Under the pieces are notes generated by a model. The model worked only from the letters and a program-made list of their open reading frames with translations. It was not told the DNA's origin and did not search any database. Below are positions 52,985 to 64,000 of a stretch of 64,000 nt of DNA, piece after piece. The stretch comes from Gracilaria domingensis. Taxonomy: Eukaryota; Rhodophyta; Florideophyceae; Gracilariales; Gracilariaceae. The first letter of the stretch is position 1. The number at the start of each line of letters is the position of its first letter. The translations under genes were made by a program, and so were the position numbers. The stretch lies in assembly GCA_022539475.1 (NCBI GenBank), contig VCMS01000049.1:275997-339996 (forward strand), in the 5' to 3' direction.

Positions 52985-53720
52985 CTAACTGAACCCCATG
53001 CGTGAGTACTTCGCCTTTAACTTGATTCGAGGGTGTCTGTGCCGGAACGGCTGGTGAGCATAAACCGGAACCGGTAATCCCAGCTCTGCTCCGGGCCGAT
53101 CATATTCCTTTCGCAAAACAGATTCCTTTTCCTCTCGCGTGAGGGCTTCGTAATACGCAATACTTTTGGCCTGTGCGACGGCGGGTATACGCACTGCGTC
53201 GATACTTGACGCGGAAGGTGGCACTGGTAACATATGACCGAGGCCGGTCTGTCGCGGGGACGATTTTCCACCCGACGTTGTGGCACTGTGTTCTTTCAAC
53301 CTGGACGGTTCAGACGCGAATAATTGTTAGCGTAAGGCAGCGGGGCTGCAGGCACCGGGACGCTTTGTGCGTACAATGCAGAGTCTTTTTCTGTACTCGG
53401 AAGCGAGGTTGACGGCAGGTACGTAGACCGGTAAAAATCGGGATTACTTCCAATGAAGTGAACGTTATCATCGTCGCCAGTACCGGTTCTCCTTTTCAAA
53501 ACCGAGACGGATGGTGACGCACTCTCCGCGAGTAGCGCTCTCGCATGGCGCTGCCTCGGGTTTCGTGCTTGATACGTCTCCCCTTCCGCCTAAGCGTAAT
53601 TAACCAACTCTAGGTACGCCATTCGGCGTTTTCCTTGCTCTGGCGAGCGACCAACGACCGAATGGCACGGTCCAAACCATCAACAAACATGGTACACCTC
53701 TCGTCTGTCTCTTGCAGATG
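52985..53720 (-). pseudogene. Ty3/gypsy Gag remnant
   Basis: Reading the minus strand from about 53720, MFVDGLDRAIRSLVARQSKE matches the gypsy Gag at 1390-1450. Further on a damaged zinc knuckle (CYQCHLPRQVSTQC, with the His replaced by Gln) lies near 53215, followed in another frame by YYEALTREEKES, matching QYESLTPAERE of the first element. Stops and frameshifts abound. The fragment matters because it shows the Gag sequence before the TGA codons seen in the copy at 128-2095. Confidence 0.75.
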
Positions 53721-53721
53721 C

Positions 53722-53840
53722 TAGTTTTTGGCGAGGGTCGTCCAGAAATTGGCAAGGGTCGTCCAGTAAATTTTTTGAAAAAATATCGAGATCAATTATT
53801 TCAAAATTTGCAGATAATTGCTTGGGTCGTCCAGAATCGC
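53722..53840 (+). repeat. Three GGGTCGTCCAG motifs
   Basis: GGGTCGTCCAGAA or GGGTCGTCCAGTA occurs at about 53737, 53757 and 53824 within 100 bp, next to the break in the Gag remnant. It may be the end of an unknown transposon. Confidence 0.5.
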
Positions 53841-54132
53841 TGTGCAGTAAATACTGGTGGGTTTTCCACTCGTGCTAGTTCTTTAGTCGAGGGCTACCTG
53901 AACTGTATTTCGCGAAGTCTAGGTTCAGTTTCCATTAAGGTGCACATTACACGATACCTTCTGCGGAATGATACCCTGCAACGCATGGAATACTAGTGCT
54001 AGTACAGATGATGCCCATTATGAAATCATACCGTTTTATTCGTATCTATTCTTCTATCGACCGCTTTTGCTAACCACTACTTCGCTATATTACATGTACC
54101 ATATCCCCATGATGGAGCGGGTGTAGGCGCAA

Positions 54133-54271
54133 TCTGCGGCAGATGCCGCAGACTGCACGTCCACCATCGGCTGTATCGGTAGAACAAATACGCACTCCGA
54201 GAGGATGAGGCGCGAAGCGCCTCATCCTCTCCGTTCCTCATGTACGGAACCATGCCCAGATGCATGGTTCC
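54133..54271. repeat. Cluster of three strong stem-loops
   Basis: TCTGCGGC/GCCGCAGA (54133-54152) comes first. GAGAGGATGAGGCGC/GCGCCTCATCCTCTC with a GAA loop (54199-54231) is a perfect 15-bp stem. GGAACCATGC/GCATGGTTCC (54246-54271) is the third. All are perfect. They could be an RNA structure or remains of a foldback element; nothing identifies a product. Confidence 0.7.
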
Positions 54272-54328
54272 CTACTTGAGGAACCTGCACCTGCAACTCG
54301 TGAGCTACGTCCGCATCAAAAGTCATTT

Positions 54329-54846
54329 ACCTGTATACGCAAGCAGAAAGTATCCATAAGTTAGTCAATGATCCGTTGGATACATTTGAAATGCGATGGA
54401 ACGTACCATTGATAAAGCAAAACAGAAACGTTGCGCCAGAAAAGTCGAGGGACCTAGTAACTCGCAAAATGAAAAAGAAGAAGGAAAGGGATCGGTTAGA
54501 TTACCAGCCCACCATCATCGTAAAGCGCGAAAGGTGTCGAAGCGAGAACTCACAACCAAGGACACCAAGAATGCCCAAGCATCAAACATACCGCAAGATG
54601 CGATAAACGAGAGAGCAGCCTATGTCCCAACCAAGTGCCAGAATCGCCTATCCCGAACAGCCAGAGATCGATCTTGAGAGACGAAATGAAATTGGTCGTT
54701 TTCCTGTATACGCAAGCAGAAGGTATCCATAAGTTAGTCAATGCTCCGTTGGATACAGTTGAAATGCGATAGAACGTACCAGTGATAAGAGCAAAACAGA
54801 AACGTTGCGCTAGAAAAGTCGAGGGACCTAGTAACTCGCAAAAGTA
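54329..54846 (+). repeat. Pair of direct repeats of about 145 bp
   Basis: 54329-54470 and 54700-54846 both run from TGTATACGCAAGCAGAA to GACCTAGTAACTCGCAAAA with few differences. They start TG, but I see no CA end or target duplication, so a tiny LTR element and a tandem duplication with a 371-bp step are both possible. Confidence 0.6.
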
Positions 54847-54849
54847 ACC

Positions 54850-55534
54850 CAAAGCCTTTTTCCTGCCGTTTACATGTCGCAGAGCGCGAAGAGACGTGGT
54901 GAGGATTGGTTAGTTTAGAACAAAGATACGTAGAAGGAAATGGAAGCACGTACGAAAAGACTGCACGGAAAGACTGCACGGAATACATCCGTGAGATACG
55001 GATGCTGTCCGCTTTATGGAGGCGTCCGACGAGGGCGGAGAAAGAGAATAAGGTACGCTTCATGTCCGCTTAATGGAATCCATTCTCAGCACGCTACTTC
55101 GTAATCCGTCGTACTTTTTTCCGCCCTCGCACTTCGTAGCGAGTGCGAGGGCGGAAAAACGTACGACGGAGCGGAGTAGAACGCGAGGATGGCACGGATC
55201 ACGACGGTGACAAAAGATCGGACGTCGGACGGGCGGGGGCGGCGGCGGAGGGAAGAGATTTATTTTTCTGTGCGAGATTGGACAAGTGTACAGCGTACAA
55301 CGTTGGGAAACCAGAGGTTTATAACCAGTGGTAGATAGTACGAGAAGTACACCCTTGTGTTGAGGTCGACGTGTACCTACGTTCCTTTTTGAACGAAAGC
55401 ACGTGATTTAAACTCAAAATATATTCTCCGTTCTGAGCAACACGTCGATATTGACTGTCACTCGACCTCCTTCTCCCTTCGGACGCCCTTCCCTTGCAGT
55501 CTTTGTCGTCGTTTCTCGTTCATTTCTTCTTCCC
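54850..55534. other. Upstream region of the transposase cassette, with a long hairpin
   Basis: The only strong feature is a hairpin at 55105-55170. Its left arm begins TCCGTCGTAC and its right arm ends GTACGACGGA. The 29-bp stem has a single mismatch and an 8-base loop. A TTTATAAC box at about 55317 could be a TATA element for the gene starting at 55535. Confidence 0.6.
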
Positions 55535-58500
55535 ATGGTCTACTACTGTACACATAAGAAGCGTGGGTGCCCCTTCGTTACTCGCCGAGGAGTCTTATCT
55601 CTTCAACAGCATGTCAACCATTGCCCGTTTCGTCTGAAAGCAGCGCTGGAAGACGACAATAGCCGGGCCATTCGGAGAAGCAAGCGTCTCAAGCTTTCCG
55701 CGCCCGCGCCCGCATCTTTTGAAACGGTCACTGCCCCTTGTCGCCTTCCCGAGCCTCCAGTGTCCGAGGACATCGTCGACCCCACTCCGTGAGCCCCTCC
55801 CATTCCGGACACTTCGCATTGTGTTTCTCCTTCCCCGGGTCCCGCGTCATTAGAGCGAGAACACGGAAGCAGTTCCCGCCCAGTGCCTTCTGAGGAGGCC
55901 CTTGGTGATTTGCATATGGATTATCTCACGGTTTGTCTGGCTTCAGTAGCTTCCAACCTTGGTCATCGTGAGGCGGACGAGCTAATTGGGCTACTTCGGG
56001 ACCCGCGATTCTCGCAAAAGCGATTCAACGAGACCATAACAAGTTCCAAGCGCTGTACAGAACTGAAGAACGCCATTTTCGAACGATACGCCTCAAAGGA
56101 CGGTTTCAATCGCAGAACTGTCTCGCCAGAAAGATGTAAGTTCAGCGCCACCCTCTACACGAGAGACCCCGTTCAGACACTTGTGAAACAGCTCCAGTTG
56201 GCTAACAACGAAAACACATTCTTCCACCCTATACCTCAGACCCACTCCACCAAAATATCTCACCCCATGTCCGGCTCTCTCGCAAGAGACGCCACCTCAA
56301 AACTTAAGGAAATGGTCATGGGCTCTTTGGATAGTAGAATAGTGTGGTACTCCCAAGAAATAAGTTACAGTGAATCTTTCGTAGGTCTTCTGCAGGTATA
56401 CACCGATAAGTCTTCAACAACTCTAAAGCAAACATCGGTTACCGCCTATCCTCTTCACCTCATATTTCTCAACTTCTCCGACGAGCTTCGCCGTAAGTGT
56501 ATCCATGATGACCTCACAGTAGTGGCATACTTCCCTACCACACTGATCGAGGTTTCCGCAGCTGAAGCAGACGCAATGCCATTTGTTTCTAGCAAGTCTC
56601 TACGCGAGTCCAGGATGCAAATCCTTCAAGAATCTCTTCGTCAAGTCCTGGAGCCCATTCTAAATCTCACGCAGAAAGGTTTTCAGTTCATCGGGGAAGA
56701 CAAACTAAGTCGAGTGTGCCATCCTCTGCTTGCAAGTTATTGTGCGGATATTCCTGAGGCTAAGGACATTCTGTCCATTCTTCATGGGACCAAAACGGAA
56801 AGCCCGTGTCATAGATGCAAAGCCCCTCGCTCATCTTTATGCAGTCCTATTCCCACCTCATTCAACGGACGTTCTCAAAAGCACACGAAAAGCATCCGAA
56901 AGACATACACAGCTATCTTGCAACATGCACAAAAAGACGAGGCGGAAAGACGTCCACGTCGTGCGAGGGAGAGGAGATCTCAAGCGGATACTCTGATGCG
57001 TTCAAATTCCATATCTCTCATTCCTTCGTTCCTCGAAACTTCCGTAAGCCTTGGAATGATCCCGGGATTGTCTCCATACAGTCTGTTCTCATTCGAACCA
57101 TTACACAACTTGCATCTCGGCATCTCAAAGTTGATAAAAACGGCCACAATCGAGAGACTGCAGTCAGACACCCTGTGCATCACAATAGGAACATCTGCAT
57201 CGCGTTCATTTCGAACGATACGCACCCAACTCCTCAACCATGCAAACGCAATTCTAGCTGCCATAGAACGCGATTCTCCTGCCAAAGGTTTACATATCGA
57301 TTTCTCCACGCAGGAGAAAGGCAAATCTTTGAATGGTATCTTCACGAAAGACGGTCTCCGTGGAATGCTGGAGGCCAAAAACTACAAAGCACTTGACATG
57401 GTCTTTCCCTTCATAGAAGCATTCTTTGACATATGCTATGGAGAACAGGACGTTGCCCCAATCACAACCGTTTTCTCTCAGTACTCGGACTTGCTCTCGA
57501 CCTTATTCAGATACAATCGTGACCCGTATTGGACTGAAAGCTCTCTCCTGTGTCTTAGTTCGGAGATTGAAACCTTCAAGCGTTCCGCAACAAAGACTCT
57601 GGCGGATTTTCATCCCTCCAGACTGGGAACTCTGAAGTTTCATCTTCTCGATCATCTCGTGGACGATATTCGCCGTCTGGGAAGTATCAAGTACTACGAC
57701 GCAGGCATATACGAACATGCACACCTGCTATTTAAGAGACACTACAAAAAGACGTCCAGAAGAACAGCAACGGCTGTGGAGGAGACTATTCGCTCCATTG
57801 AGCACGGACATGTTAGAAAGCAATGGAATGGCAATACTCCTTACCAGCGTAATGCAGGTTTACCAGGAACTTCCACACAGCTTCCTCGGTTTGCAATGAG
57901 AGGGCGTTCTTTCACTTTACGAGCTCTTCAACATTGTGTTTCAAGTATGTCCAGTTCAAAAACATGGACTGCTGTTAGAGAAATGTTCTCAAGTACGGAC
58001 ACAAGGTCGATTCTTGATCAAATTGGTGAACAGGCCCTTCCTCCTTTCCTCAGTCTCGTGAAAAAAACACTGGATGAGCACTCTATTACATACTTCCCAG
58101 AAAAGACAAGGATAACTCTGGTGAATTCGGCCCTCGTGAAAGGCGATTTCGTTCCGACTCTTGAACACTTCGATTCGTCTTCTAAGGCACTTAAGCTGGG
58201 ACGACCCAAATACCCCATCATCCAACGTGTCTTCGCTTCTCCAGCATTTGCTCCCAGTAGAAAGCCAAAGTTTTCCACTGTATTGGTAAGCGGAGAAGAT
58301 TCAGAGACTTGGGTTGCCCAGGCAGTCGCTCTGATTCGAATATCTCTCCTTGATTCTGCACTTACCGCACCAGAGGTGGCATTCGTCCGGTATTTCGAGG
58401 TTTTACCCCCCGCAACAAACATCGACCACATATTGAAATGCATATCTTTACGGTGGGCTACAAACGATGAAAAGAACCACACTCTTCCGTTCCCTCGTCA

Positions 58501-58714
58501 TTCCAAAGCGGAGACTATCGTAGAGTTAACTCCTTGGTACGGGATGGTTCCGGCTTCTGCACTACAGGGAACTTTCCATGTTGTTCGATCAAACTACCCT
58601 GCTCCACCTTTTTGTCTTCCACTTCAATGGTTTCAACACCGATTCTACATCAATCGATTCTATCATGATTCAGATGAAGGACCAACTGAGCACGTTGATC
58701 TTGTACAGCCTTAA
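55535..58714 (+). pseudogene. Plavaka/CACTA-like transposase, one in-frame TGA
   Basis: A 1060-codon frame starts at ATG 55535 with a Cys/His finger (YYCTHKKRGC ... HVNHC), as in Plavaka transposases. TGA 55790-55792 interrupts it; the frame continues without shift to TAA 58714. Plavaka-like landmarks follow: VTAYPLHLIFLNFSDELRRK, a CHRCKAPR zinc motif, and SLFSFEPLHNLHLGISK. Near residue 690 is a GTLKFHLLDHLVDDIRRLG block with YYDAGIYEHAHLLFKRHY. The enzyme would cut and paste an element with CACTA-type ends. Its 3' end is only 50 bp from the convergent gene at 58765. I cannot see the terminal repeats. Confidence 0.72.
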
Positions 58715-58764
58715 ACATTAAGGGCTCCATCCTCTACATGTTCACCTTGTGGTGCCTTTTCTTG

Positions 58765-61105
58765 TCATCCTGTGTTACTTCCGAAATCGTTCATGTCCAT
58801 TTCCTTGAACTCCATATCCCCTTCCTCGCATTCACCAACGAAGCAATCGCTAATAGACCCCAATCTTCGGCTCACACTGTCAATAAAAAATTGTTCTTTC
58901 ACAGTGAGGTAAAGTCTTCCGTTCGACGGCATTCGATATCCAAATGTAGCCTCTCTCATATCATTACCAAGAACCTTAGTCCAATCTTCCGTTGTCGTTC
59001 CAAAATTATGAAACTCGCTGGAATTGGTCCTCAAGACACGTTGCCTAACATCCCCCAGAACATTCTTTAAACACAGAGGTAGCAGTTCGGCAAACTTCTT
59101 TGTAAACAGTTTCTGTCTCTGGCCACCCCTTGACACATCCGTACTTAGAAGGCTCACAACCGTCAACACCCAAGCGTCCAAACGTGCGAGCAACAGTATT
59201 GTGCCATCTAAGAAGGTGCCTGTATCCTTGTCTTCCACATCATACCCAATAAACTCCTTCAGCACTTGTACCCCGACACGGTTTCGGAAGAACAAGTCTT
59301 GATCTTCCGTCGGCATATCCTCGACATTGTCCGCATTGGAGTACTTTAGACGAACAAGTGGGGCTTTTCTCCACCATGAAGTGTTCGGTACACCATTTTC
59401 GTCAAGACGCAGTATGTTCTCCTGCGCTTCCTTCAACTGCATTGTGAGTTCGTCAGCATTCTCTTCTACCAGCTTTGTTCTTCTCCAAATCAGATCGTAC
59501 CCCAGGAGCAGAAATAGTTTATCCCTCGTATTTTTCTTACGAACGCCCACGACGTCACTCATGGTCTGCCGCATTCTCTGCCTAAGGCACATATCTGCAC
59601 AAAGTTCCAGTATACACCTGTCGGTAAGAGATGCTTTTCTAATACCTTCCCAGCTCAACTCCTTCAACTCGATTTCAACCATTTTCTTCAGCAAAGCATC
59701 TGGCCCCCCCTCTACCGAGTGTGAACATGCCAAAACTGCCCAAGAGCTCCACGGGGTTTTTAGAAACCATGTATGAACCACCTTCCTCCGGCTCAACAAG
59801 CCCTTCACCACTCTCAGTTGCGTCTTCCACCTTCTCGGCACGGTTACCCCAATTTCGGGTGAGCGACTCACCTTCGAGCCATAGCTCACTTGTTTCTCTC
59901 CTTGCCCACGTCAGCATGTTGTGATACACTGCTCGAGCAACCCCTCGAAACTCGTCGCACACCTCAATTTTATGCTTCTTTCGACCTGTCTGCCCAGGTT
60001 CACCAGCACGTGTACTCCTATCTCCCTCCTGTTTCAGTGCCCCTCTTAGCCCTTCAATGACTAGATCCTTCTCTTCAAGCCTCTTTTTCAAAGCCGTACT
60101 CTGCTCTTGGGCGACCTTCACTAGAATTCCCCGAACCATCAAGTCCTCTTGTAGCGTCTTAACCTTTTCTTTCAAGCAATTCATTTCATTTAAAAGATCA
60201 TGTCTGTTCATAGAGGTTGATTTCACACCAGTGTGGATATCTTCCGGTATTTCCCTAGCCTGTTCGGCGACAGGCTCCGGTAATGCCGCAGGATTCGGTG
60301 TTATTTCGTTATCGGAACTATCCTCATGTGCCATAGCCTTAGACACGAGAGGCTGCAGGCGTTCTGTGTCCACCCTTGGCACGGCTTCGAGCTCCAACTC
60401 CCGTGTCTGTCCTCCTCCATGGCATGGTATATCAGATGAGTTGGGCCTCGTACGAGCTGCAACGGCCCCCGTTCTGGAAAGAGGGGAAGGTCGAGGACTA
60501 ACTCGTCTATCAGTTGTCTCTCGATTTCTTATTGTCTTTCTCCCTTGTCCGGACCCATTGCGAGGCATGATACGATTCATAGCGGACCCAGTTCTAGAAG
60601 ACAGGGATGGACGTGACGATCGTAATATACTAGGGCTCTCACGACTTCTCGTCATTGTCCCTTGTTGTCCTGATCCACTGGGCGGCGTAACCCGCGCCCC
60701 AGTAGCTCCGGTCTTCGATGTCGGCCGGGGACATGAAGGTTTTGGTGTCATACGAACCTCTTCGGTTCCAGTTGTCATGCCCTCCTGTCCTGACCCGCTG
60801 GGCCGAGTTACCTCATCTTCTTGAGGAGCAGAGACAGATTCACGATTTGCATTATCGGCAGTTGACGGCACGACATCGTTCGCTGATCCACGAATTCTTG
60901 ACGCCATCCCGGAAGACGCTCCGCTGCGAGATGGGCGAGAGAGTCCTGTAGAAGGACGCCCACTGACTCTCTCCTTCGTCGAGGACGACTTCCGTTTAGG
61001 AAGTGCGGTGCTTGTAGCCTGATTCGTATCATCCGATGCTCTTCTCTTCTTCTGTCCACTCTTGTTCCGCTGCGTACTATTTCGCTTTCTCGGCGTTATA
61101 CCCAT
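58765..61105 (-). pseudogene. Basic, repeat-containing coiled-coil protein in the cassette (frameshifted)
   Basis: Two overlapping ORFs (61105-59675 and 59889-58765) make one protein of about 775 residues if one base in the C7/G7 run at 59704-59710 is discounted. The N-terminus is rich in basic clusters (MGITPRKRN and KKRRASDD) that look like nuclear signals. Three imperfect repeats of about 40 residues with SGSGQ and RPSLSSRTGA motifs follow (about 60440-60830). A coiled coil comes next (NEMNCLKEKVKTLQEDL ... LKKRLEEKDLVIEGL). The C-terminal 370 residues are helical with no motif I know. It may be an accessory protein of the transposon. Confidence 0.6.
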
Positions 61106-61138
61106 GCTGTGGAGATAAACAGGGTAACGAAACGAAAT

Positions 61139-61173
61139 TGTTGGGGAGGGGGGGAGGGGGTGGGGGGGGGGGG
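61139..61173 (+). promoter_or_regulatory. G-rich tract upstream of the coiled-coil gene
   Basis: Four or more G runs (GGGG, GGGGGGG, GGGGG and G12, separated by A or T) on the plus strand could form a G-quadruplex. The tract lies 35-70 bp upstream of ATG 61105, in the likely promoter region. A sequencing or assembly slip in so long a run is also possible. Confidence 0.5.
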
Positions 61174-61356
61174 TGCATGGTTCAGATATTCCGGGAGACT
61201 CCGCAGTTCCTGCTTTTTAGGAATTTGAGGTGCCCAATGGGTCGCAAATATCGCCGTTACAGATGAAGAGCTCCAGTGTACATGTACAACAACGCGTATT
61301 GCAGGCAGCTGCAACACTCACAAGCATATTTACTTTCTATTCGGTACTGAACTCAT

Positions 61357-62118
61357 CTATTGCTCCAATGTCAGAGCCCAGTCCCAGGCGTACTGCTCTC
61401 CGTAGTTGAAATACAACTCTTCGCCCCTCTCAATATCTCTTACTGCTCTACAACGAAGTAGAGCATAGTTAGAAAGGTCTGACTTGAACTGTATCACGGA
61501 CTTCGCTTCCACCACCTGCACATTGGCACTTCGAGTCCTGTTTGACCGGGGCTCCGATAAATCGGGATCCCCGGCATGATATCCGGCGTCGCTAATGTAG
61601 CCCCCGATACAAAAAGGCGCCGGGACAATGTAGACTTCGCTCTCCTTTCTATCCTGAGCCTGTCCTGGTCTGTTCCTCAGGTGCAGAAACTCCGTACCAG
61701 TCACAGTGATCATCATAGAAAACAACTTGTACCGCACTGGAGTTGCTCCGAGACAGCCACTTCCATACGTTAAGTGTCTTTCCTTCCGGTTCGTCAGATC
61801 CGTGTATACCAAAGTTCCATAGAAATGACAGATAGTTTCCCCAGCCAATATCTTATGTTCCGTGAACACCCCCATACCAGCACGGGGATGTCGAATCTTA
61901 GAAGATGCTATATATAAGCGATAGCGATTGGCTTCAACAGTCAACAGCATATGCATATCCATAAGATTCAGAGCTCCTCGGTACTTCCCCTCCCAAAGAT
62001 CTACAGTACGCTGTCCACACTTCTCGACAAAGTCCCAGTCCTTCCAGTATCTTCCTAGGAACTGAGTAAATGTCCAGGCATCACTTGGTACTGGGGGTAA
62101 CCAAATGGAGCCTCCCAT
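61357..62118 (-). CDS. SET-domain (protein lysine methyltransferase) part of the methyltransferase gene
   Basis: The ORF contains a SET core. YIASSKIRHPRAGMGVFTE and ETICHFYGTLVY form the N-terminal SET motif, and YALLRCRAVRDIERGEELYF with FNYGEQY forms the C-terminal motif. The NHS/pseudoknot region is divergent (RSANVQVVEA where NHxxxPN is usual), so catalytic strength is uncertain. SET enzymes transfer methyl groups from S-adenosylmethionine to lysines, often on histones. The frame overlaps the end of the DNA methyltransferase ORF by 64 bp at a G5 run (62093-62097). A one-base indel there would fuse both domains, and the sequence before the overlap reads naturally into this one. Confidence 0.75.
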   Translation of the reverse strand: MGGSIWLPPVPSDAWTFTQFLGRYWKDWDFVEKCGQRTVDLWEGKYRGALNLMDMHMLLTVEANRYRLYIASSKIRHPRAGMGVFTEHKILAGETICHFYGTLVYTDLTNRKERHLTYGSGCLGATPVRYKLFSMMITVTGTEFLHLRNRPGQAQDRKESEVYIVPAPFCIGGYISDAGYHAGDPDLSEPRSNRTRSANVQVVEAKSVIQFKSDLSNYALLRCRAVRDIERGEELYFNYGEQYAWDWALTLEQ

Positions 62119-63962
62119 TCAAGCCGACCTCGATCCCGATGTGGAACCCGTTCATAGGTCGTTGAAGCCGCATCCACCACCTCCTGTTCAACCAGGATGT
62201 CATTCTTCCCCACGCGAATAGCTTCGGCCATAAGAGTCGTTAGATGGTGCTTCGCATGGCTGAAACATGGCCTATTCTTCTCGCACCCCAAGAACTTCCT
62301 ATGATTTGTCAGCGATAGGCACGCCATACCCGTAGAAAAAGTTCCCGCGAACATTTCCATGACAAGATCACCCGGTCTTGTGAAGCGACATATCAACTCC
62401 TTCATCAACTCCTTCGACTTCTGCTCCGGTCTTATATACTGCCCACCTGGTATTGAACTACCTGGCTCATGTACCTTCCATGTCAACCACTCCCCCGCTC
62501 TCGGTTTGGGCACCCGGTCAATTACATTCCTGTTAGCCGGGAAAGTGGAAGGAATGAAATTGTTCTCCTCAAATGGAGTAAGACTGGCTTCCTCCGATGG
62601 TCGCAATCCACGCTTCACCCCATGAACGGCGTACTCCGTTACGGGCTGTATCCCAAACTTCCGTGGATTCCCTCCAACATTACTGCGATCCCGGATGAAC
62701 ACCAGTGGATTTGCATCCACTTTAAACGAAGGCATGAGTTCTGGTTTACCTTCGCTTCCAGCTTCATCTTTCGTACTCGCCGTTTCCGAAAGTATCCTGT
62801 GCCACACATGAAACTGTGCCAGGGCACAGAATATAATGAAGTGCCCACCTGACCGAAGCGCGGAACTTATTAAGTCAGCCGTACGGATCATGTCTTCCTC
62901 ACTGAAGACATCGTGACCACTATTCCGTTTGTTTCTCTTCCTTCGAGTGTTAAAGGGAGGGTCTGTTAGGACAAGCTGTGCCTCACCCCATAAAATCTCA
63001 CTCTGATTCACAAACGTTTCGTGTGTGTGCCTCAGGTCCTTCATGTCACAGTTGTACGCTACAAAGTGTGACTTTCTCATCCCCTTCCACACCTTGTCCA
63101 TATTCATTCGAAGGAGACTGGATATCCCCTTCATGGGCGGCTCAATACCAGTCTTTTGGATGTTGTAACCGGCAACCCGAGATTCATGCTCCGCAAGATT
63201 CACCGGCTTCTCGAACTCGTCGCTATCGGAGCTCACGAGGTTCATATACTCTCGACGAGGTGGGGGTGGGGCAGACTTGGTCGAAGAAGGTTCGGCATTA
63301 CCGGAAGTTTAGGGGTTTTCGTCAGTTCAATATCAGGTTTCGCGTGAATGCCGACATGGAACCCTGCCGCATGACGCATATCCTGTATCGGTTTCCATAG
63401 CAACTCCGAAAACTTCTGAAATCGAGCAGGCAACTCACCGGAGTCAGAGCTAGATACGGTATCCATCCGTATCTCCGAAAACTCTATCCAGTTCCTCATC
63501 TGATCAACCCGTAAGCTATAGAGGCTATCGTGGGTGCATATGGTTTCGAGGTCTGTCAAAAAATCCTTAGCCAGTATTCGCAGGTTTGTATCGCATTCAT
63601 CACTCCAGGTCTCCACCGATCCACTAGTACTGCTCTGTGGCACATCCTTTGTGTTGAATCGAGTACTCTGGCTCGGCGGGGCATAACCAGACTCCCGTGT
63701 CTCTAGCGCTGTATACTTCAACGTCTGCATATTCATGTAAAATGTATGGTTTCACCATGTGCTGAACGTTCGTGTATCCAAGATGAGCCGCAAAACAACT
63801 CCATGCCCATACGACCTCACTGATAGCGAATCCCAGTCGATCACAGTTGTCTTTGGAGAACGACGTAAAAGTGGGTATGTACACAGATGGTGCATGGTTC
63901 ACTTTTCGTTTCTTTTTCGGTTGTTTCTTCTTCATCATTCGGATGTTGTCGTTCTCTCCCAT
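62055..63962 (-). pseudogene. Beta-class DNA N6-adenine methyltransferase with NLS (frameshifted)
   Basis: The clearest part, ORF 63245-62055, has catalytic motif IV as LVLTDPPFNTRRKRN, a target-recognition-like middle, and then the SAM-binding motif PGDLVMEMFAGTFSTGMAC. The order IV, recognition, I is that of beta-class amino-methyltransferases, and DPPF favours N6-adenine. Upstream, ORFs 63962-63624 and 63736-63242 continue the N-terminus in changing frames. The first begins MGENDNIRMMKKKQPKKKRK, whose PKKKRKV is a classical nuclear signal. One-base shifts lie near 63710-63745 and in AAAACCCCTAAAC near 63305. Together with the SET part it would be a nuclear enzyme of about 850 residues. Confidence 0.75.
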
Positions 63963-63981
63963 TATGTGGCCGAGGTATGAT

Positions 63982-63992
63982 AAGTATATAAC
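63982..63992 (-). promoter_or_regulatory. TATA-like box for the methyltransferase gene
   Basis: GTTATATACTT on the minus strand lies 20-30 bp before ATG 63962. This is close, so translation may start very near the transcript end or at a later ATG. Confidence 0.45.
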
Positions 63993-64000
63993 GACCTCAA

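Follow-up and report, generated by a model that had tools for sequence, protein, structure and literature searches.

Can a DNA transposon carry its own enzymes for marking both DNA and histones? This question is raised by a 64,000-nucleotide stretch of the genome of the florideophyte red alga Gracilaria domingensis (assembly GCA_022539475.1, contig VCMS01000049.1, positions 275,997 to 339,996), referred to here as the window. In it, a transposase gene of the Plavaka lineage neighbors a gene that combines a beta-class DNA amino-methyltransferase with a SET domain (hereafter MTase-SET, where MTase denotes methyltransferase). The genome searched comprises 77,892,253 bases in 680 contigs, labeled C1, C2 and so on; the window is C49:275997-339996 and its end coincides with the end of contig C49. 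Our analysis makes it nearly certain that the locus holds a high-copy, recently active cut-and-paste DNA transposon with a Plavaka-lineage transposase, and very probable that MTase-SET lies inside the mobile unit. The overall explanation that we favor, with modest confidence, is that the transposon uses its own MTase-SET gene for permissive marking. The principal features, in window coordinates, are:

53702..64000, plus strand: Plavaka-lineage transposon, window part, from the left end up to the end of contig C49
55535..58714, plus strand: Plavaka-lineage transposase, 1059 codons, assigned by Pfam and motifs
61357..62118, minus strand: MTase-SET gene, SET part (PF00856)
62055..63245, minus strand: MTase-SET gene, beta-class amino-methyltransferase part (PF01555; DPPF, then FAGTFSTG)
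63242..63998, minus strand: MTase-SET gene, N-terminal helical part, its frame broken and cut by the contig end

A preliminary description of this DNA had reported, on the minus strand, a single gene with a beta-class MTase followed by a SET domain. Both domains are recovered by Pfam, as N6_N4_Mtase (PF01555, E 9.8e-14) and SET (PF00856, E 1.9e-8; 35.1 bits against a cut-off of 22.4). Motif IV (DPPF/DPPY) precedes motif I, the order that defines the beta class, and the fold agrees. The claim of a single gene holds for another copy rather than for the window, where MTase and SET occupy separate, shifted frames; on C171, MTase-SET is one open frame of 1055 amino acids in which both domains are found (1042 amino acids of the frame in L041). 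We consider it likely that both domains are active. The target of the MTase is probably DNA adenine, judging from the DPPF/Y motif, with N4-cytosine possible.

Homologues place the protein in a wider family. The MTase is kept in all 33 diverged homologues and the SET domain in 30 of the 33, and the homologues include one from Chondrus. In the predicted model of a homologue the N-terminal part is helical, and viral SET proteins are among the Foldseek matches of this model; the rows shown in the VIA structure listing cover the MTase part, with the SET and N-terminal folds barely sampled. At least 595 stretches of prokaryotic genomes match the pattern and at least 120 encode a relative. Among the 80 relatives listed, none aligns past query residue 780, so that the similarity is to the MTase only. 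A viral origin was considered and rejected, as none of the 48 IMG/VR stretches that matched the pattern encodes a relative. Within the genome searched, C382 contains three SET matches (C382:11387, 35738 and 111587) in open frames of 1169-1170 amino acids with slightly different spans, which are possibly diverged members of the MTase-SET family.

The preliminary description had called the plus-strand transposase frame Plavaka/CACTA-like. The Plavaka part of this name stands: the long frame at 55883-58714 matches PF18759 (E 7.8e-19; 68.5 bits against a cut-off of 26.3) over profile positions 36-274 of 325. The protein has a Cys/His-rich N-terminal start, and the C(2)C (CHRC at residue 425) and H(3)H (HLLDH at 703) motifs lie between the second D and the last E, as defined for Plavaka transposases; the catalytic residues may be D291, D406 and E727, which were predicted by reading rather than by alignment. 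The CACTA part does not stand in the strict sense, since the element has CGTCTG..CAGACG termini and a 2-bp target duplication, where CACTA/EnSpm elements have CAC..GTG termini and a 3-bp duplication. A duplication of the Plavaka type (2 bp in PlavakaA, 2-3 bp in PlavakaB) is seen in copies shorter than 16 kb and mostly not in long ones, a difference read as mis-joining or recombination. Because profile and motifs are those of Plavaka and the ends (CGTCTGT..ACAGACG) are unlike either subgroup (TGT..ACA or CATCA..TGATG), the best name is a Plavaka-lineage element with another end type. Beside the element copy on C171, the minus strand holds the start of a different Plavaka-like gene (L041:2-658), Cys/His-rich by reading, which suggests a second Plavaka-type family in the genome.

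The left end of the element lies within the window and is described by the following features:

53700..53701, strand not assigned: left-flank dinucleotide CT, half of the expected 2-bp target duplication, with its partner outside the window
53702..53717, plus strand: left terminal inverted repeat CGTCTGTCTCTTGCAG, matching the right end at 12 of 16 positions, the first 7 identical
53736..53834, plus strand: three subterminal copies of GGTCGTCCAG, starting at 53736, 53757 and 53825
54322..54843, plus strand: direct repeat pair of about 149 bp, 94% alike (54322-54469 and 54695-54843)

In the window and 9 other copies homology sets in at about 53702, and the flank differs from copy to copy. The right end falls outside the window; the sequence ...CACAGACG is common to the copies on C34 and C17 and is followed by unlike flanks. 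A complete unit of about 22.6 kb is present on C34 (C34:184904-207547; 22,644 bp). The left CGTCTGTCTCTTGCAG pairs with the right CGTCTGTGTTCTGCAA as short, imperfect terminal inverted repeats. GGTCGTCCAG was not found elsewhere in the window, and its subterminal copies are possible transposase-binding repeats. Copies on C120, C307 and C463 have an additional unit of the 149-bp repeat.

The preliminary description had proposed a search for other copies, and there are hundreds. Genome-wide, 361 left and 285 right ends fit the end patterns exactly, and with up to three mismatches allowed there are 219 instances of a 32-bp SET site and 344 of a transposase site. Reversed-pattern controls for the ends, the SET site and the transposase site had no match in the genome, so the numbers of SET and transposase sites exceed chance. 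The end patterns miss any copy whose third flanking base is G, and statements below about individual ends, SET sites and transposase sites refer to the first 100 places in contig order. With 54500-64000 as query, 14 of 794 candidates were scored: the window itself and copies spread over 13 further contigs, with 96-99% identity in their main matches, whether these are full or partial. Scored end copies are 99-100% (40 of 624 candidates) and 98-100% (40 of 655) identical, in a scoring that takes the best candidates first and under-represents older copies; much of the amplification is thus recent.

Target-site duplication was assessed by pairing listed ends within 30 kb. The left input consisted of the 100 listed rows and three added by hand (C17, C179, C157), and the right input of 82 of the 100 listed rows and three added by hand (C179, C23, C157), the 18 right rows on C102-C120 having been dropped because the left list ends at C100. 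Of 17 pairs shorter than 16 kb, 14 have the same dinucleotide on both flanks (14 of 16 without hand-added rows). The matching dinucleotides are varied (TT, GG, TA, AT, GT, AA, CA, AC, TC), which identifies a true 2-bp target duplication. A clean nested insertion is seen at C65:175276-201381, where a 13.2-kb copy (AT/AT) sits inside another (AC/AC). On C157, a copy (C157:158026-167062) is inserted in an abundant gypsy-like retrotransposon, identified by reading of its coding frame; with 40 matches scored among 279 candidates, this retrotransposon is the source of many empty reference sites. Compared with five empty gypsy copies, the filled site equals the element plus 2 nucleotides, and the flanking dinucleotides, AG and AC, differ at one base. 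A duplication formed by CG inside the ends (CG-TCTGT..ACAGA-CG) was also considered and rejected, as the empty sites for C157 lack CG and the copy matching the C23 left flank has TCTGAGATTCG there.

Variation between copies indicates which genes have been maintained. Codon variants present in at least two copies, each counted once, comprise 12 nonsynonymous and 20 synonymous changes in MTase-SET and 7 and 22 in the transposase, giving ratios of 0.21 and 0.12 relative to neutral. Singleton variants number 120 and 68 in MTase-SET (0.62 of neutral) and 189 and 85 in the transposase (0.83). The associated p values assume independent variants, an assumption that related copies violate. Since shared variants are constrained and singletons are nearer neutral, MTase-SET, like the transposase, appears to be intact in multiplying lineages and to drift after insertion, which supports the view that MTase-SET stayed functional during multiplication of the element.

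In the explanation that we favor, the MTase-SET protein would methylate adenines in the DNA of the element and also a histone lysine in the nucleosomes that cover it. The coupled marks would lead to permissive chromatin, in which the transposase stays expressed or the ends stay accessible, and copies without the gene would be mobilized in trans. The permissive, anti-silencing effect is a tentative part of this explanation, its chances falling somewhat short of even; it is suggested by a tie between N6-methyladenine (6mA), H3K4me3 and permissive chromatin reported in passages of one study (PMC12695648) and by the weak leaning of the SET domain toward KMT2C. Several observations count against the explanation. 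The fold of the MTase resembles both N4-cytosine and N6-adenine methyltransferases, the SET domain has only weak relatives of different kinds (KMT2C, EZH2, KMT5A), singleton variants approach neutrality, and many copies are broken. PF01555 enzymes are writers of either N4-methylcytosine (4mC) or 6mA. The window copy is itself broken in all three genes, the transposase by an in-frame stop (55790-55792) that none of 13 other copies examined shares, and the coiled-coil gene described below and MTase-SET by shifted frames.

A more elaborate system of self-identity is improbable at present: MTase-SET would place a coupled DNA-amino-methyl and histone mark on the element's own copies, so that these stay permissive for transcription and transposition although the host silences repeats, and a large protein encoded in the right half, whose ParB/GmrSD-like and dioxygenase-like parts are both unproven, would read, bind or remove the marks. 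If true, a eukaryotic transposon would have turned a bacterial modification system into a weapon that acts on chromatin. Self-silencing or copy-number control, with MTase-SET writing a repressive mark on element copies and sparing the host, is likewise unlikely: hundreds of copies, with scored ends 98-100% alike, give no sign of effective self-limitation, and the DPP(F/Y) motif is unlike the SPPY of the rotifer enzyme N4CMT considered below. It is also doubtful that the gene is passenger cargo, without function for the element and maintained on grounds other than transposition (a benefit to the host, selfish survival or a recent capture). The 14 short copies with clean target duplications all lack a listed SET site, as cargo would allow, and other right-half genes are little constrained: between C34 and C505 or C17, the ratio of nonsynonymous to synonymous substitution rates (dN/dS) is 0.74-1.01 for three of them and, for a fourth, 1.61 (C17) or 0.40 (C505, 43 codons only). 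Against cargo stand the purifying selection on shared MTase-SET variants and the retention of the domains among diverged homologues.

That MTase-SET is part of the mobile unit is very probable, the target duplication being the weak point. The preliminary description had raised the possibility that all three genes lie between one pair of terminal inverted repeats with a target duplication. Constant spacing and sharp ends with different flanks support the first part of this proposal. The distance between transposase and SET is constant at 33 of 60 listed SET sites; of the 48 on C1-C100, 45 are accompanied by a correctly oriented landmark of the element (transposase near 30, left end 37, right end 12, all three 9), counting only transposase rows near SET sites. 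The duplication is found in short copies without SET and not, above chance, in those with it. Only 3 of 17 pairs of 16 kb or longer have matching dinucleotides (2 of 14 without hand-added rows; chance 8.5%). Two of the long mismatches pair an end of one nested C65 element with an end of the other, and the longest match, at 26.1 kb, is the C65 copy that encloses the other. The pairs resting on hand-added rows are C17, a match, and C157, C179 and C23, all mismatches. Among 11 SET-bearing end-paired copies (C17, C23, C34, C38, C41, C50, C65, C89, C99, C100, C179), C17 alone has matching flanks; the SET matches in C41 and C179 are additional to the list of pattern hits on C1-C120 from which the spacing was counted. 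This copy is 17.3 kb long, with an internal deletion and TC on both sides, and holds the transposase and roughly three quarters of MTase-SET, including both domains; about one match in 11 is expected by chance, so C17 alone is no proof. In addition, 23 of the 60 listed SET sites lie farther than 12 kb from any transposase site, and SET lies within 6 kb of 37 of 99 listed transposase sites (the C121 row omitted) and not of the other 62. Many copies therefore lack the gene and move without it, and MTase-SET is dispensable in cis.

SET-bearing copies are long, and the behavior of long copies suggests why they may mismatch. A clean 22.8-kb copy on C23 was rejected because its left flank sits in the gene of another copy. 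The expected right partner of the C23 left end, with GA, is on C296 (2 mismatches of 26), and the exact left partner of the C250 right end, with the same dinucleotide AA, is on C106; a partner test for C53 gave one match with 3 mismatches, too loose to count. The partner is thus on a different contig in two of three nested-insertion tests (C23 and C250). Mis-joining by the assembler or ectopic recombination, two causes that are not separable here, has affected part of the long copies, and the split partners explain why long copies may mismatch. Among long pairs without a listed SET site, those on C5 and C29 also mismatch and that on C6 (21.4 kb) matches, so that mismatch tracks length at least as much as SET. 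Given the chance-level flank match and the mis-joined or recombined long copies, membership in the unit rests on colinearity.

The same flank mismatches and mis-joined copies are what would be expected if a Plavaka transposon lay beside a separate MTase-SET element, the two being copied jointly or joined in the assembly. This is quite improbable in view of the constant spacing, the sharp outer ends at many sites and the mismatches of the pairs on C5 and C29 that have no listed SET site. That MTase-SET belongs to a host gene family or a segmental duplication beside which the transposase happens to lie is very improbable, as only 3 of the 48 SET sites on C1-C100 lack a nearby listed landmark, and sharp ends with differing flanks oppose it.

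How does a transposon-borne MTase-SET gene compare with known systems? DIRS elements are tyrosine-recombinase retrotransposons, some with an adenine-type methyltransferase, and share with the seaweed element the presence of an amino-methyltransferase on a mobile element; we know of no SET fusion among them. Plavaka transposons include fungal families carrying TET/JBP genes, and TET genes occur in other fungal transposons as well, according to the portions cited of Kojima 2025 (PMC12730594). Like the fungal Plavaka elements, the seaweed element has a transposase that belongs to the Plavaka family of Pfam and bears the C(2)C and H(3)H motifs, a 2-bp duplication and a gene for an epigenetic-mark enzyme. 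Unlike them, it resides in a red alga, has CGTCTG..CAGACG ends, reaches about 22.6 kb and carries an amino-methyltransferase-SET fusion where the fungal families carry TET. SET genes are known from HarbingerS and MuDR transposons of Phytophthora (Kojima and Jurka 2014, as cited in PMC12730594), which likewise bear a SET histone methyltransferase; these belong to other transposase superfamilies, and the citing passage mentions no SET-fused DNA methyltransferase. Amoebidium has giant Plavaka repeats whose similarities extend to red algae and dinoflagellates; they differ in forming tandem gene clusters, many with tyrosine recombinases, and MTase-SET is not mentioned in the relevant passages (PMC11244446). 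EnSpm-Plavaka elements are also reported, in an excerpt of another study, from a green alga (PMC12633428). The N4CMT of bdelloid rotifers joins a bacterial-type beta-class amino-methyltransferase to a chromatin module, as MTase-SET does, and writes a repressive mark on transposons; as described in the sections cited, it differs in being a host gene off the transposon, with a chromodomain and an SPPY motif (PMC8885841). In a literature search judged mostly from titles and the openings of abstracts, no amino-methyltransferase-SET fusion on a transposon was recognized.

Transposons with editors of cytosine marks or with SET genes were known already; here a bacterial-type DNA amino-methyltransferase and SET are joined in one polypeptide on a high-copy DNA transposon. 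The family gives direct access to three questions: is 6mA or 4mC genuinely written as a mark in red algae, can one enzyme couple DNA amino-methylation to the methylation of histones, and do transposons deploy such marks against silencing? These questions are testable, as the family is abundant and near-identical in one seaweed. If the marks are absent, the element is still a large, cargo-bearing Plavaka-type transposon that complicates genome assembly.

The remaining gene of the window part lies between the transposase and MTase-SET:

58765..61105, minus strand: gene for a coiled-coil/low-complexity protein, broken here (overlapping frames 58765-59889 and 59675-61105)

As previously described, this gene adjoins and converges with the transposase gene, their ends at 58714 and 58765 being 50 bp apart. 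In copy L011 it is a single open frame of 864 amino acids. The product has no Pfam match, "coiled-coil" being a reading of its sequence, and neither frame shows significant constraint in codon variants.

The right half, seen in C34 and C171, encodes the large protein of more than 1000 amino acids. It has a GmrSD_N (ParB-like) match below threshold (E 0.21) and a C-terminal stretch with HxD..H-like residues. This stretch has no Pfam or NCBIfam family, only chance-level PDB matches (best E 0.71) and a poor structure model (predicted local distance difference test, pLDDT, 30); relatives of the protein are G. domingensis proteins and one unnamed protein. Its putative dioxygenase-like nature is a lead only, unsupported by family, PDB or model results. 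The right half also has two frames for HAD-like hydrolases, 43% alike, one matching PF08282 at E 3.5e-13 and the other just below the cut-off at E 5.6e-4. A further frame, L042:7316-8560, has MarR as its only Pfam row (E 0.029, below the cut-off) and may be ketopantoate-reductase-like by reading alone. Between the divergent MTase-SET and large-protein genes sits a group of inverted repeats whose 100-bp arms are 97-98% alike (L040:5267-6731 and L041:5986-6892); it might serve both genes as a promoter or act as a second recognition region. In public gene models of G. domingensis the large protein is named "mediator of RNA polymerase II transcription subunit 15-like" and "cell-wall-anchored protein SasA", two names that look like misannotations of the repeat.

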